Counted from the stretch's first letter, positions 54,900 through 61,106 are shown. The stretch is DNA of 64,000 bases from Olsenella sp. KGMB02461 (GCF_012584445.1 NZ_JABAHI010000008.1:1178001-1242000); one strand, 5' to 3'. The notes: a model not told the origin generated them from the sequence alone. Translations and numbers: made by a program.

Positions 54900-57833
54900 A
54901 TGACTCAGTCCGCACCTGTGTGCCCCAACCTCAAGCCCGGAGATGCCGTCGGCGACTTCACGCTGGTCTTACGCGAGCCCGTGTCGGAGATCGACGGCGA
55001 GGCCCTGGTCTTTCGCCACTCCCCCTCGGGAGCTGGGGTTTTATGGCTCGCCAACAGCGATAACAACCGCGCCTTCTCCATCGCCTTCAAGACGCCGCCC
55101 ACCAACGACACTGGCGTCTTCCATATCTTGGAGCACTCGGTGCTGGACGGCTCTGACAAGTACCCTGTCAAAGAGCCCTTCGTCAACCTGCTCAAGAGCT
55201 CCATGCAGACCTTCTTGAACGCCATGACCTTCCCAGACAAGACCATGTACCCGGTGGCCTCCACCAACGTGGCAGACCTTGAGAACCTCATGGACGTCTA
55301 CCTGGACGCCGTGTTTCATCCAGCGCTCTATCGCAAGCCCCATATCTTTGAGCAGGAGGGCTGGCACTACGAGCTGGAGAGCCCCGACGCGCCGCTCACC
55401 TACAACGGCGTGGTGTTCAACGAGATGAAGGGCGCCCTCTCAGACCCCGACGACGTGCTCTTCATGCACCTCAAGCGCCAGCTGTTCCCCGACACCTGCT
55501 ACGCCTTCGAGTCTGGCGGCAACCCCGCCGCAATCCCCGAGCTCACCTACGAGGAGTTCTGCGATACCCACGCCCGCCACTACCAGCTGGCCAACTCCCA
55601 TACTGTGCTCTACGGCGATCTGGACATCGAGCGGGAGCTGGCGTTTTTGGGGGAGCGTTTCTCGGCAGTGGACCATGAGGACGTGGGAGCCCCCAACGCG
55701 CTGGAGCTCCAGGAGGCAGTGAGCCCGGATCCTGTGGAAGTGCCGCTGTCTACCTCGGCAGACAATCGCTGCGTAGGCGTAGGCTACGTGCTGGGGACCT
55801 CCAAAGACCGCGAGCGCGTCCTGGCGGCAGACGTGCTTATCGACGCCCTCATGGGCTCCAACGAGGCGCCGCTCAAGCGCGCCGTCCTGGATGCTGGGCT
55901 GGGCGACGACGTCTTCGCCTACCTCATCGACGGCGTGGCGCAACCCATGGTGATCTTCGAGCTCAAGGGCGCAAAGCCAAAAGTAGCCGGCCAGTTCAAG
56001 GAGCTTTTGGAATCCACCTGCAAAGGCATCGCCGCAGCCGGCGTGCCCACCGACCGCCTGGAGGCCTCCCTGGCCCAAGCCGAGTTCAACCTGCGCGAGG
56101 CCGACTTTGGCTATCCCGACGGCGTGGGCCTGGCCATCTGCTCCATGAACAGCTGGCTCTACGACGAGGGCGACCCGCTGTCCTTCGTGCGCTACGAGGC
56201 CGCCTGCGAGGACCTGGAAAACTCGCTGGGCCTGGGGGTCTTTGACAAGCTGCTGCGCGAGCTGGTGGTAGACAACCCCCACCAGGCCCTGGTGACCGTA
56301 GAGCCTCAGGAAGAGACCGCCGCAGCCCAAGAGGCGCAGCGGCTCGCCCAGCTCAAGGAGACCCTGAGCCACGAGGAGCTGGAGAAGATCTCCTGCGACA
56401 TGGCCTCTCTCAAGGCCGAGCAGGCCCGTCCCGACAACCCCGAAGACGTCGCCCGCCTGCCCCACCTCTCCATCGCAGACATCGCCGAGGCCCCCGCCCT
56501 CCCTGTTGCCGAGAAGGTCGAAGCCCCCTATCCCTGCTATTCCTACGACCTCGAGACCCACCACATCGACTACAGCTACCTCTACTTTGATCTGGAGCGG
56601 GTAGGCTGGGGCGAGCTGCCCTACGTCACTGTGCTCTGCTCGCTGCTGGGCAAGCTGGACACCCGCCAGCACACCGCCGCCGAGCTGGACACCCTCCTAG
56701 AAAGCCAGTTGGGCTCCTTCTCCACCTTCGTGGAGGTCTACGGCGACGCCCGCACACCTCTTAAAGTAGCCAAGCCCAAGCTGGTGGTAGGCGCCGCCTC
56801 CCTCTCAGAGAAGGTGTCTTACCTAGCCACCCTGCCCTGCGAGGTGTGCTGTGAGACCATCTTTGGCGATACCGAGAAGATCCGCGCCATCCTGGTGCAG
56901 CAGCGCATCGCCATGGAGCAGTCTTTTGTCAATGCGGGCCACGCCGCGGCCCTGGCCCGCTGCGGCAGCTACTTCTCCTGCGCCTCCAAGGCCACCGAGG
57001 CCCTGCGCGGCATCGACTACTACAAGTTCTTGGTATCGCTCCTGGACAACTTCGACCGCCGCGCCAGCTCTCTCTGCGAGATCCTGCGCAACCTCCAGGG
57101 CCGCATCTTCAAGGGAGACGGCCTGGAGTGCTCCTTTGCCGGCGCCCCCGGCGATCTGAAACGCTACTGGGAGGCCGCGGGCGACCTGGGCCTGGCAAAC
57201 GACGGCCATCCCACCGCGCCCCAGCTTCAGGTACCCGAGCCCACCGTCGCCCGCGAAGGCTTCACCGTGCCTGCCAACGTGTGCTTCGTGGCGCAGATGG
57301 CTGCCGGCAACCTCATGCCCAACAACCAACATACGAGCTACAACGGAGCTTGGATCGTCGCGTCCAAGGCCCTCAATTATGGGTACCTCTGGAATGAGGT
57401 GCGCGTGCTTGGCGGCGCCTACGGCTCCGGCTTCAACTGCGCTCCCTCATCGCTTTTGGGGTTTTACTCCTATCGCGACCCCGCGGTAGACCCCACTCTG
57501 GCCGCCTATGCCAAGGCAGGCCAATGGCTCGCTTCTTGGGACCCCACCCAAGAAGACCTCGAGGGCTTCATCGTGTCCTCGGTGGCAGGCCTCGACGCGC
57601 CCCAAAAGCCCCGCACCGCCATGCGTCTGTGCGACAACCAACGCTTCTCCCACCGTCCCGCCAACTGGCGCCGTCTGGTGCGCGACGAAGTGCTGGCCGC
57701 TTCTGTCGACACCGTGCGCAGCCTCGCCAGCTCCCTGTCTGGCGTTCCTGAGCACGGCGGCATCTGCGTTATTGGCGGTTGCGACCAACTCGACGCATCC
57801 CAGGCCGGAATCGAGGTGCAACCCCTCGTCTAG
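54900..57833 (+). CDS. M16C-family zinc metallopeptidase (PreP/Cym1-like)
   Basis: A 977-residue, single-chain peptidasome of the presequence-protease group, which degrades peptides in a closed chamber. The inverted zinc motif HILEH is at 75-79 and the third zinc ligand Glu lies in NEMKGALSDPDDVL. The C-terminal half ends with the conserved NYGYLWNEVRVLGGAYG. There is no signal peptide, so it acts in the cytosol, possibly in peptide turnover. GGAGG precedes ATG 54900. An extension of the frame to 54648 overlaps the EamA gene and is rejected. Confidence 0.9.
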   Translation: MTQSAPVCPNLKPGDAVGDFTLVLREPVSEIDGEALVFRHSPSGAGVLWLANSDNNRAFSIAFKTPPTNDTGVFHILEHSVLDGSDKYPVKEPFVNLLKSSMQTFLNAMTFPDKTMYPVASTNVADLENLMDVYLDAVFHPALYRKPHIFEQEGWHYELESPDAPLTYNGVVFNEMKGALSDPDDVLFMHLKRQLFPDTCYAFESGGNPAAIPELTYEEFCDTHARHYQLANSHTVLYGDLDIERELAFLGERFSAVDHEDVGAPNALELQEAVSPDPVEVPLSTSADNRCVGVGYVLGTSKDRERVLAADVLIDALMGSNEAPLKRAVLDAGLGDDVFAYLIDGVAQPMVIFELKGAKPKVAGQFKELLESTCKGIAAAGVPTDRLEASLAQAEFNLREADFGYPDGVGLAICSMNSWLYDEGDPLSFVRYEAACEDLENSLGLGVFDKLLRELVVDNPHQALVTVEPQEETAAAQEAQRLAQLKETLSHEELEKISCDMASLKAEQARPDNPEDVARLPHLSIADIAEAPALPVAEKVEAPYPCYSYDLETHHIDYSYLYFDLERVGWGELPYVTVLCSLLGKLDTRQHTAAELDTLLESQLGSFSTFVEVYGDARTPLKVAKPKLVVGAASLSEKVSYLATLPCEVCCETIFGDTEKIRAILVQQRIAMEQSFVNAGHAAALARCGSYFSCASKATEALRGIDYYKFLVSLLDNFDRRASSLCEILRNLQGRIFKGDGLECSFAGAPGDLKRYWEAAGDLGLANDGHPTAPQLQVPEPTVAREGFTVPANVCFVAQMAAGNLMPNNQHTSYNGAWIVASKALNYGYLWNEVRVLGGAYGSGFNCAPSSLLGFYSYRDPAVDPTLAAYAKAGQWLASWDPTQEDLEGFIVSSVAGLDAPQKPRTAMRLCDNQRFSHRPANWRRLVRDEVLAASVDTVRSLASSLSGVPEHGGICVIGGCDQLDASQAGIEVQPLV

Positions 57834-57853
57834 CCTTAGCTAGGAGGGGCTTC

Positions 57854-59245
57854 ATGAGCCAGATGACCAAATCGGACGACCAAAAGCTTGGCATCAAGAT
57901 TTTAGATGCGTGGGCTTCCGCCATCGACGGCGTCATGGACGACCGCCCCGACATCACTGGCTTTTGGCTGCTCAAGGCCTTCCAAGTCAAACGTGCCCAA
58001 TGCCGCTTCCTGCCTGACCGCTGGGCCCACCCCAGCGGTCGGCAGGCGGCTCTTTTGGCGCTGGAGTCTGTGACAGGCGCCCTTGAGCACCCCCAAGACA
58101 TCGTGCTCACCTCCATCTTCATGCCCAATGAGATCTTTCAGTCGCTGGGGCTCTATCCTCTTATCGCCGAGGCCGCAGCCAACTTTGTGACCGGGGCCCA
58201 CGCCGAGCCTTCCTTCATCGACAGTGCCGAGAAACACGGCGTTCCTGAGACCTATTGCTCCTTTCACAAGGTGCTTCTGGGCGGGGCATTCGCAGAGGTG
58301 TTCCCCTCTATCCCCTTCATCGCCAACTGCTCGGTGGCCTGCGACGCCAACAATCTCTCCTTCAAGCTGCTGGCTGCCCACTACGGCGCCCCTCAGCGCT
58401 ATATCGATGTGCCGGATTCTTATACAGAGGAGAACTGCCGCTACGTGGCAGAGCAGCTGGAGAGCCTGGCTCGCGCCTTGGAAGAGGCCTACGGGCGCAC
58501 GTTGGACCTGGAAGATCTCAAGGAGCGCGTAGCCCGCTCCCAGCGCACGTTGGACAAGCTGGTGGCCACCCTCCCCTTGCGACGCAACCGCTTTGTGAAA
58601 AACAACATGGGGCTCGAGATGCAACATGCCCTGGTATTCCATACGCTGTTAGGCGACCCCAAAGCCGAGCAGCTGGCAACCCAGATGCTCGAGGACTACG
58701 CGGGCGCCCCAGAGTTTCATGGAGTCAACCTGGTGTGGAGCGCCACGGCCCCGTTCTTCTCGGTACCTTTGCAAAAGCTTGTGGATGTCAATCCGGAGCA
58801 ACAGATCATCGCATCAGACATGTGCTTTGACCAGGTCACCTTTGACGGTTGGCATCACGACGGCGCGCATGAGCCCTTCCCGGCCATGGCCGAGCGCCTC
58901 ATCCGCAACTCCTACAACGGCGGAGGCCAGCGTCGGGCAGACAGAATGGCAGAGCTCTGCGAGATGGCCAAGGCAGACGGCGCCGTGGTCTTTTGCCACT
59001 GGGGCTGCAAGGAGACCATGGGCTGCGCCCAGCTGGTGAAGTCCACGCTAGAGCGGGCGGACTTCCCCTGCATCACGCTGGACGGCGACGGCTGCAACCG
59101 CGCCAACTTCCCCGGCGGCCAAGCCGCCACGCGACTGGGCGCCTTCTTGGAGATGCTTCACGCTCGCAAAGACCAGCGGGCAGCGGCACACCCGCAGCCT
59201 GCAGCCTCCCCGCGCGACGAGAGCGACAAGCAGACCGTGGCATAA
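57854..59245 (+). CDS. 2-hydroxyacyl-CoA dehydratase / benzoyl-CoA reductase-type (HgdB-like) subunit
   Basis: A 463-residue member of the HgdB/BcrC/YjiM family, iron-sulfur proteins that accept single very-low-potential electrons from an ATPase activator. Family features are SIFMPNEIFQSLGLYPL near residue 95, YCSFHKVLLGG, PFIANCSVACDANN, and the late FCHWGCKETMGCAQLVKSTLE, which supply the cluster cysteines. The ASP-rich CoA-site features cannot be judged by eye. TAGGAGGGG precedes ATG 57854. It is followed by a gene for a fused partner subunit and activator, so the two form the whole enzyme system. Confidence 0.8.
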   Translation: MSQMTKSDDQKLGIKILDAWASAIDGVMDDRPDITGFWLLKAFQVKRAQCRFLPDRWAHPSGRQAALLALESVTGALEHPQDIVLTSIFMPNEIFQSLGLYPLIAEAAANFVTGAHAEPSFIDSAEKHGVPETYCSFHKVLLGGAFAEVFPSIPFIANCSVACDANNLSFKLLAAHYGAPQRYIDVPDSYTEENCRYVAEQLESLARALEEAYGRTLDLEDLKERVARSQRTLDKLVATLPLRRNRFVKNNMGLEMQHALVFHTLLGDPKAEQLATQMLEDYAGAPEFHGVNLVWSATAPFFSVPLQKLVDVNPEQQIIASDMCFDQVTFDGWHHDGAHEPFPAMAERLIRNSYNGGGQRRADRMAELCEMAKADGAVVFCHWGCKETMGCAQLVKSTLERADFPCITLDGDGCNRANFPGGQAATRLGAFLEMLHARKDQRAAAHPQPAASPRDESDKQTVA

Positions 59246-59387
59246 CAGATCCCGTGGTCTCAGGCCTCTTGGGCACCCTGGGTTTACAATGCCTAGAGCT
59301 CGCTCTATTCAGAGACGCGCCATCCATGCGCCTGAACCTTTTGACAGCCGCTTCACTCTAGAAACCCCCAATCCATAGGAGCGTCGG

Positions 59388-61106
59388 GTGACTCCCACCG
59401 TTTACTATCCCTGCAAATACGCGCCCATCGAGCTTTTGGCCGGCTACGGCGCTGCCTGCAAACCGGTTACCTACGAGGCCACTTCCTTTGAAGATGCCGA
59501 TAGGCTCGCCCACCCCAACCTCTGCGGCTTTGGCAAATCCCTCATCGCCTTTGCCCTAAAGCCTGAGGTCAAGGCGCTGGTGCTCACCAGCTGCTGCGAC
59601 GTGATGCGCCGCGTCTATGACGTGTTGGACGCCGAGCAGTGCTTGGACTTCCTGTTCATGGTAGACCTCCCTCATCTCACCGGCCCTGCGGAGCGCGCGC
59701 GTTTGGCCTCCGAGCTTGAGCGTTTGGCAGAGGCCTGGGAGCGCTATTCGGGTGAAACCTTTGATGTAGGGGCGGCCCTTGCCTCCTTCGAGCCCCCGGT
59801 GGCCAGACAAGACGCCCGCGTCACCCTGTTGGGCGCCCATGGCCCCGAGTCGCTGCTTAAGGCTGCCGAGTCTGCCTTCGACCTGCCGGTGGAAAACCTC
59901 ACCTGCACCGGTGGCCGCAGAGTGGCTTCTCCTCCAGCCTCGCTGGGTCGCGCCATCCGCCAAGAGGCGTGCCGCGAGAGTTGCGACGCGAGCACACCGG
60001 CCCCAGACCCCAAGGAGGCGTTTATCGGCTGGTATGCAGGAGCGCTGCTCGACCAAACCCCCTGCCTGCGCATGGCCGACATCTCTGGCCGCCAAAACCT
60101 CATTGGCGCTCCAGGACAACGCGGCGTGATCTATCACACCATGAAATTCTGCGACTACTACGGCTTTGAGTACCTTATGGCCTCCCAGGACGCCGCGGTT
60201 CCCATGATCAAGGTGGAAACCGACGGCACCCGCCAAAGCGCGGGCCAGCTCTCCACTCGACTAAAGGCTTTCGACGAAACGTTGGTAGGTATGACTGACA
60301 CGCTCAAATTTGACAAAGGCACCGGCCCCATTTACGTGTTGGGAGTGGACTCGGGCTCCACCTCGACCGATGCCGTCGTAGTAGACAAAGACGGCACTCC
60401 TGTGGCCACGGTGATCCTGCCCACCGGCGCCAAAGCCACTGAGAGCGCCCAGCGCGCCATCGACTCCGTGCTCGAGAAGGCTGGACTTGCCCGCGACCAG
60501 ATCACGCTCGCGGTGGCCACCGGCTACGGCCGCGACTCCATTCCCTCCATGGACACCTCCATCACCGAGATCACCTGCCACGCCCGGGGAGCCCATGCCC
60601 TGTGCCCCGAGGCCATGACCATCGTAGACATCGGCGGCCAGGACTCCAAGGTCATCAAGCTGGACGAGGACGGCAATGTGGTGAACTTTGTGATGAACGA
60701 CAAATGCGCCGCCGGCACCGGGCGCTTCTTGGAGATGATGGCCCGCACCATGGAGCTGCCCTTGGACGAGTTTTGCACCCAAGGCCTTTCCTGGAAGCAT
60801 GACGTGAAGATCTCTTCCATGTGCACCGTCTTTGCCGAGAGCGAGGTAGTAAGCCTGGTAGCCGACGACACTCCCGTGCCCGACATCATCCATGGCTTGG
60901 ATCGCTCGGTGGCCTCCAAGATCACCAGCCTCGCCAAGCGCGTGAAGGCCGAGCCTCCCTACCTCATGACCGGCGGCGTCGCCAACAACGAAGGCGTGGT
61001 CACCGCCATTGGCGAGGCTTTGGGCGCACCGGTAGCCACCAGCGAAGACTCCCAGCTCTGCGGTGCGCTGGGCGCCGCTCTGCTAGGCCTGGAAGCCCTG
61101 GTTTAA
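59388..61106 (+). CDS. Fusion of a compact dehydratase-family subunit with its ATPase activator (HgdC/archerase type)
   Basis: A 572-residue protein. Residues 1-310 look like a shortened HgdB-type subunit: YPCKYAPIELLAGYG, TSCCDVMRRVYDVL, MKFCDYYGFEY and the terminal GQLSTRLKAFDE are in family order. Residues 315-570 are an activator ATPase of the ASKHA fold: VLGVDSGSTSTDAVVVD, DIGGQDSKVIKL, NDKCAAGTGRFLEMM and SSMCTVFAES, with the two cysteines that bridge the [4Fe-4S] cluster between two protomers, then GGVANN. The start is GTG 59388 with ATAGGAG upstream. It lies 142 nt after the partner gene. The substrate is unknown: 2-hydroxyacyl-CoA dehydration or a double-cubane reductase role are both possible. 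Confidence 0.8.
   Translation: MTPTVYYPCKYAPIELLAGYGAACKPVTYEATSFEDADRLAHPNLCGFGKSLIAFALKPEVKALVLTSCCDVMRRVYDVLDAEQCLDFLFMVDLPHLTGPAERARLASELERLAEAWERYSGETFDVGAALASFEPPVARQDARVTLLGAHGPESLLKAAESAFDLPVENLTCTGGRRVASPPASLGRAIRQEACRESCDASTPAPDPKEAFIGWYAGALLDQTPCLRMADISGRQNLIGAPGQRGVIYHTMKFCDYYGFEYLMASQDAAVPMIKVETDGTRQSAGQLSTRLKAFDETLVGMTDTLKFDKGTGPIYVLGVDSGSTSTDAVVVDKDGTPVATVILPTGAKATESAQRAIDSVLEKAGLARDQITLAVATGYGRDSIPSMDTSITEITCHARGAHALCPEAMTIVDIGGQDSKVIKLDEDGNVVNFVMNDKCAAGTGRFLEMMARTMELPLDEFCTQGLSWKHDVKISSMCTVFAESEVVSLVADDTPVPDIIHGLDRSVASKITSLAKRVKAEPPYLMTGGVANNEGVVTAIGEALGAPVATSEDSQLCGALGAALLGLEALV

Follow-up and report, generated by a model that had tools for sequence, protein, structure and literature searches.

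Archerases are homodimeric ATPases with a bridging [4Fe-4S] cluster, and the enzymes that they drive catalyze reductions at potentials among the lowest in biology. One described system, the class I benzoyl-CoA reductase BzdNO(PQ) (8s02), is an archerase-fed heterodimer of a double-cubane storage subunit and a catalytic subunit whose [4Fe-4S] cluster is held by three cysteines. In its structure, BzdN Cys36, Cys73, Cys100, Cys263, Cys293, and Cys327 bind the [8Fe-9S] cluster, and the ligands of the catalytic [4Fe-4S] cluster are BzdO Cys95, Cys128, and Cys380 (PMC11971306). Its four components are encoded separately, two of the genes specifying the activator, and BzdN is full-size. The double-cubane cluster protein DCCP, whose archerase partner is its reductase DCCP-R (6eno, 7yyl), has six cluster cysteines too, and forms a homodimer whose activator is a separate protein. 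The 2-hydroxyisocaproyl-CoA dehydratase HadBC and its activator (3o3m, 4eht) bring together a catalytic subunit, a donor subunit, and an archerase, each encoded by its own gene; HadC has four of the six donor-side ligands, with proline at the Cys36 position and alanine at the Cys263 position of BzdN. Lastly, archerase-DUF2229 fusions hold the archerase inside one polypeptide, in which two archerase domains lead and DUF2229 follows.

The stretch of DNA analyzed here (the window; 64,000 nucleotides) comes from a 2.19-Mb genome whose nearest named relatives are Olsenella and Tractidigestivibacter. A preliminary description had proposed two open reading frames in it, and both were found, each with a Shine-Dalgarno sequence; gene 2 starts with GTG, and AGGAG lies 6 nt before the start codon (Table 1). 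A promoter and terminator scan gave no signal above shuffled sequences. Both proteins pass the gathering cut-off of HGD-D (PF06050; 28.4 bits), with 176.3 and 100.8 bits. The central proposal, a dehydratase-type subunit fused to its activator with the subunit first, was borne out: Pfam recovers HGD-D (E 1.5e-28) and BcrAD_BadFG (E 1.1e-64) in gene 2, and both HGD-D and the archerase are present in 55/55 aligned relatives. Gene 2 is therefore confirmed as a genuine single-chain fusion, in the order subunit then activator. An assembly or frameshift artefact was ruled out by a 98% identical copy in a close relative (G001) and by the presence of both domains in all 55 homologues.

Table 1. Features of the two-gene locus, in positions of the window.
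Feature	Positions	Strand	Description and basis
Shine-Dalgarno AGGAGG of gene 1	57842..57847	+	Read directly; 6 nt before ATG
Gene 1 (P0001)	57854..59245	+	463 aa, ATG start; HGD-D subunit of catalytic type, three invariant Cys
Cys135	58256..58258	+	Predicted [4Fe-4S] ligand = BzdO Cys95; invariant; alignment
Cys163	58340..58342	+	Predicted [4Fe-4S] ligand = BzdO Cys128; invariant; alignment
Ala297 of gene 1	58742..58744	+	Near-invariant His elsewhere; WxHxxP loop beside BzdO Gln274 position; alignment
Cys385	59006..59008	+	Predicted [4Fe-4S] ligand = BzdO Cys380; invariant; alignment
Gene 2 (P0002)	59388..61106	+	572 aa; double-cubane-type HGD-D domain fused to archerase
Domain 1, residues 1-302	59388..60293	+	Compact electron-storage subunit; structure and sequence comparison
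Cys9	59412..59414	+	= BzdN Cys36; invariant in 92/92; two alignments
Cys46	59523..59525	+	= BzdN Cys73; invariant; two alignments
Cys69-Cys70	59592..59597	+	Cys70 = BzdN Cys100; invariant; two alignments
Cys173	59904..59906	+	= BzdN Cys263; invariant; two alignments
Cys226	60063..60065	+	= BzdN Cys293; invariant; two alignments
Cys255	60150..60152	+	= BzdN Cys327; invariant; two alignments
Linker, about residues 303-314	60294..60329	+	Sequence and length variable; model confidence lower
Domain 2, residues 315-572	60330..61106	+	Complete archerase/activase; TIGR00241; structure match
Cys440	60705..60707	+	Archerase dimer-cluster ligand; invariant; aligned to KCAAGTGRF of Hgd/Had activators
Cys479	60822..60824	+	Archerase dimer-cluster ligand; invariant; aligned to SSxCTVFAESE of Hgd/Had activators

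The activator half of gene 2 proved to be a complete archerase with both cluster cysteines, as proposed. It scores 249.9 bits on TIGR00241 (cut-off 125.4), which all 55 relatives also match; residues 314 to 572 align with HgdC (1hux) at Z 37.0, and C440 and C479 are invariant in the 92 sequences of the family alignment. The spacing from E297 to G319, across the linker, is 21 residues in the window's gene 2 and 18 to 60 across the family. The AlphaFold model of the whole chain has a pLDDT of 92.9. The N-terminal domain is compact: the HGD-D profile is matched at both ends only (positions 1 to 121 and 255 to 342), and, relative to BzdN, DCCP, and HadC, the domain lacks the N-terminal helix and some 60 residues from the middle helical part, leaving a middle region of 23 residues versus 80 to 85. 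DCCP is its top sequence match (profile, E 5e-29), and its fold is tied among BzdN (Z 22.4), DCCP (22.4), and HadC (21.7). With Z scores of about 22 to these three proteins, the N-terminal 310 residues clearly belong with the HgdB side of the superfamily. The earlier label "HgdB-like" holds as kinship with the HgdB side but not as a generic HgdB, as the domain is of the six-cysteine BzdN/DCCP type.

The cysteines originally listed for this domain were partly right: C9, C69-C70, and the terminal TRLKAF stand, C254 is in fact C255 (residue 254 is Phe), and three invariant residues that determine the type of cluster (C46, C173, and C226) had been omitted. At each of the six BzdN [8Fe-9S] ligand positions, 92/92 fused proteins have a cysteine. 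This equivalence was reached by two routes, a profile of the fused domain against BzdN and DCCP, and a free 52-sequence alignment blind to the ligands. In the latter, every fused domain, DCCP, YjiM, and BzdN read CCCCCC at the six columns, and HadC and MbdN do not. From this pattern and the six invariant cysteines, we infer with good reason that the fused domain holds a double-cubane [8Fe-9S] cluster. MbdN, which belongs to a reductase, is without three of the six double-cubane ligands, so the double cubane is no strict reductase marker. A seventh invariant cysteine, Cys69 (59592-59594), lies beside the ligand Cys70 and is absent at that place in DCCP, BzdN, and HadC.

Gene 1 had been described as a full-size HgdB-like subunit. 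The size is correct, but the ligands, the profile search, and the tree all assign it to the catalytic HadB/BzdO type. HGD-D spans residues 88 to 435 (Pfam), and BzdO and HadB are the top matches in the profile search. The AlphaFold model (pLDDT 94.2) aligns at Z 40.2 with HadB and 38.6 with BzdO, the first row outside the superfamily reaching 6.3. Its only invariant cysteines, in the family and superfamily alignments, are C135, C163, and C385, at the BzdO/HadB ligand positions; a single open-site [4Fe-4S] cluster is thus predicted on firm grounds. E106, H138, and N166 are conserved polar residues in the family alignment. In bzd-type catalytic subunits, Glu65 and His131 form the acid/base pair. 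The position of the catalytic His131 of BzdO is an invariant Asn166 in the gene 1 family, and E106 corresponds by spacing to a glutamate of HadB but is not placed at Glu65 in the free alignment. The middle domain, which forms the CoA channel in BzdO and HadB, is full (79 residues). Additionally, the N terminus extends about 50 residues beyond HadB, with helices at 12 to 27 and 32 to 52 (model and alignment). At a guess from the model, this extension could occupy the space of the helical bundle lost by gene 2.

A phylogeny of the domains against known subunits had been suggested as a check, and the maximum-likelihood tree, which covers HadB/C, BzdN/O, MbdN/O, DCCP, and YjiM and leaves out BcrB/BcrC and HgdA/B, splits catalytic from donor subunits. 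Gene 1 groups with HadB, BzdO, and MbdO (support 97/93), and the fused domain groups with DCCP/YjiM, BzdN, MbdN, and HadC (97/91). The gene 1 and fused-domain families are each monophyletic (100/99), and the fused domains fall outside the DCCP/YjiM clade (100/98). Furthermore, both proteins miss the equivalog cut-offs of the named families: DCCP (NF040772, cut-off 350 bits; P0002 52.7, P0001 53.6 bits), bzd benzoyl-CoA reductase (TIGR03190-03192; bzdO 29.7 against 448.6 and bzdQ 189.3 against 380.2 bits), and HadB and HadC (39.5 and 23.8 bits against 750 and 700). On NF040772, YjiM and the Coriobacteriia DCCPs score 443 to 531 bits; E. coli YjiM thus scores as a DCCP. The pair would work like BzdNO plus its activator, with all nine ligand positions matching, yet the definitions of those families exclude it; identity to BzdNO is 17 to 20%, and, unlike BzdNO, no aromatic-degradation genes are conserved nearby. 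In contrast to the DCCP homodimer, one donor-activator chain is accompanied here by a distinct catalytic subunit, and HadB remains the nearest fold to gene 1. In the open-access PMC papers searched, no characterized enzyme of this subunit-activator architecture was found. The fusion would add a deep-branching third double-cubane group besides DCCP and BzdN. Large ATPase-first fusions, also anticipated, do exist: the same genome encodes a 1558-aa protein (C10, L201:656-5332, -) with BcrAD_BadFG twice and then DUF2229, in which Pfam detects no HGD-D, and matches in long open frames suggest that most genomes of the bacterial family carry this fusion. Elsewhere (L158:1-2515, +; G142 C106), unfused neighboring six-cysteine and three-cysteine HGD-D genes score below every equivalog cut-off and apparently form another unnamed heterodimer of the superfamily.

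The fusion occurs in some 80 sampled genomes from Coriobacteriia, Lachnospiraceae, Oscillospiraceae, other Clostridia, and Spirochaetaceae; carriers include Blautia wexlerae, Roseburia porci, and Clostridium luticellarii, and many are gut anaerobes. A gene-neighborhood survey, likewise suggested at the outset, identified gene 1 as the sole widely conserved neighbor. It lies immediately upstream in 75/77 loci by script, and the remaining two are positive by BLAST. The two genes overlap or abut in 54 of the 75, by 4 nt in 33, an overlap typical of translational coupling; the window's gap of 142 nt is unusual among the loci. Of 140 genomes of the bacterial family, 41 contain gene 1, and exactly these genomes also contain a single fusion each, with a few of the counted copies truncated at contig ends. 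The correlation between the gene 1 and fused-domain distance matrices is 0.86 (maximum of 500 permutations, 0.11), although this correlation and the co-occurrence partly reflect shared ancestry as well. As anticipated, no CoA-transferase, dehydrogenase, acyl-CoA, or other substrate-naming gene is conserved across the 80 loci. A conserved operon that would name the substrate was ruled out, the upstream M16 peptidase being kept in nine loci and nothing more widely. In the window, this M16C/PreP-type peptidase gene (54906-57833) stops 20 nt before gene 1, with the same layout in the nine related loci, and the two genes may share one transcript.

Taken as a whole, the pair is probably a heterodimer that acts as an ATP-dependent radical reductase of the benzoyl-CoA-reductase/2-hydroxyacyl-CoA-dehydratase type, with the storage subunit fused to the activator. 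The archerase domains of two gene 2 chains would pair around one [4Fe-4S] cluster, to which each contributes C440 and C479, and a ferredoxin or flavodoxin would supply electrons to this dimer. ATP hydrolysis would then drive single electrons onto the [8Fe-9S] cluster of the fused domain (C9, C46, C70, C173, C226, and C255). This domain would pair with the gene 1 protein and deliver its stored electrons to the open-site [4Fe-4S] cluster there (C135, C163, and C385) for radical reduction of the substrate. In some genomes, two gene-1-type catalytic subunits would be driven by one gene 2 donor. Sequence and structure comparison shows the domains and their fusion, which cysteines are equivalent, the types of subunit, the co-occurrence, and the single donor copy; cluster identity, electron path, pairing, reductase activity, and donor sharing are deduced. 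The original idea that fusion holds the donor beside one half of the acceptor survives as tethering; since gene 1 is the catalytic subunit, that half would be the entry cluster. Because archerases are dimeric, there would be two donor domains per activase dimer, a stoichiometry that counts against our preferred reading; the missing middle helical bundle could also alter subunit pairing.

The same components could be arranged as a radical lyase like the 2-hydroxyacyl-CoA dehydratases, in which a hydroxyacyl-CoA is the ligand of gene 1, a single electron delivered with ATP starts many turnovers, and the fusion merely anchors the activator. HadB is the top structural match of gene 1, the CoA-channel domain is retained in full, and the loop by the position of the thioester-binding BzdO Gln274 is strongly conserved. 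We nevertheless consider a dehydratase unlikely, as the fused domain has all six donor-side ligands whereas HadC lacks two, CoA-related and dehydrogenase genes are not conserved around the loci, and the HadB/HadC equivalog scores are far under the cut-offs. Tethering may itself point to a reductase, because a reductase spends ATP at each turnover and a dehydratase calls on its activator mainly at the outset. The initial preference for a reductase over a hydroxyacyl-CoA dehydratase appears supported.

Less probable still is a DCCP-like small-molecule reductase, with fused chains pairing by their N-terminal domains, the double cubane as active site, and gene 1 as an accessory or regulatory protein. 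A homodimeric archerase does place two identical domains together, and DCCP is the closest protein to the fused domain in sequence, but gene 1 is a constant companion of the fusion, is catalytic by the tree, and has the full three-cysteine site together with E106, H138, and N166. That active-site architecture also weighs against a maturation or reactivation factor, which would give low-potential electrons to another enzyme and not to a metabolite, as does the absence of a conserved client gene in the 80 loci. The neighborhood without substrate genes would suit such a factor, and corrinoid proteins are among the enzymes reactivated by ATP-dependent electron transfer (PMC6739815); even so, it seems very improbable.

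Under the heterodimeric reductase reading, the number of catalytic subunits per donor becomes relevant. The window's genome has a second gene-1-type copy (C12:1142552-1143841, -; L168:3550-4842), located some 93 kb upstream of the first, which scores 481 bits on the gene 1 profile and has no activator of its own. No second short archerase rises above the Pfam cut-off in this genome, just the large DUF2229 fusion. Two gene-1-type copies, tandem or remote, occur in about a dozen of the 41 fusion genomes. Tandem pairs precede one fusion at L010, L011, and L012 and in genomes G006, G021, G032, G165, and G166. Within the bacterial family, Ala or Ser at position 297 is restricted to adjacent copies, in genera whose genomes also have a remote copy, and the remote copy keeps His297 in 7/7 genomes with both; these genera are related, so the change probably reflects one or a few events and not seven. 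In one 88% complete genome (G149), the adjacent copy also has Ala/Ser297 and a second copy was not found. This difference between adjacent and remote copies suggests that the adjacent subunit altered its chemistry or substrate, that the remote one kept the ancestral loop, and that both rely on one donor. In the window's clade, one donor apparently serves two catalytic subunits. A more tentative extension is that the fusion acts as a modular, self-charging injector for at least two interchangeable catalytic subunits in the same cell, whose active sites, and hence substrates, would differ. A TM1586-type nitroreductase gene (PF14512) lies downstream of the remote copy on the same strand in the window's genome, G001, G020, and G143, and was not seen beside the second copies in G022 or G003. 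Selenocysteine or a pseudogene in the G003 second copy was ruled out, the flagged TGA being a normal stop codon.

Dissociation of donor from acceptor hampers work on the docking and firing of the ATPase. This step would become directly testable with a donor and store that are naturally joined in one chain, as in cultivable gut bacteria including Blautia wexlerae. Moreover, the pair probably conceals an unfamiliar anaerobic reduction performed in animal guts.
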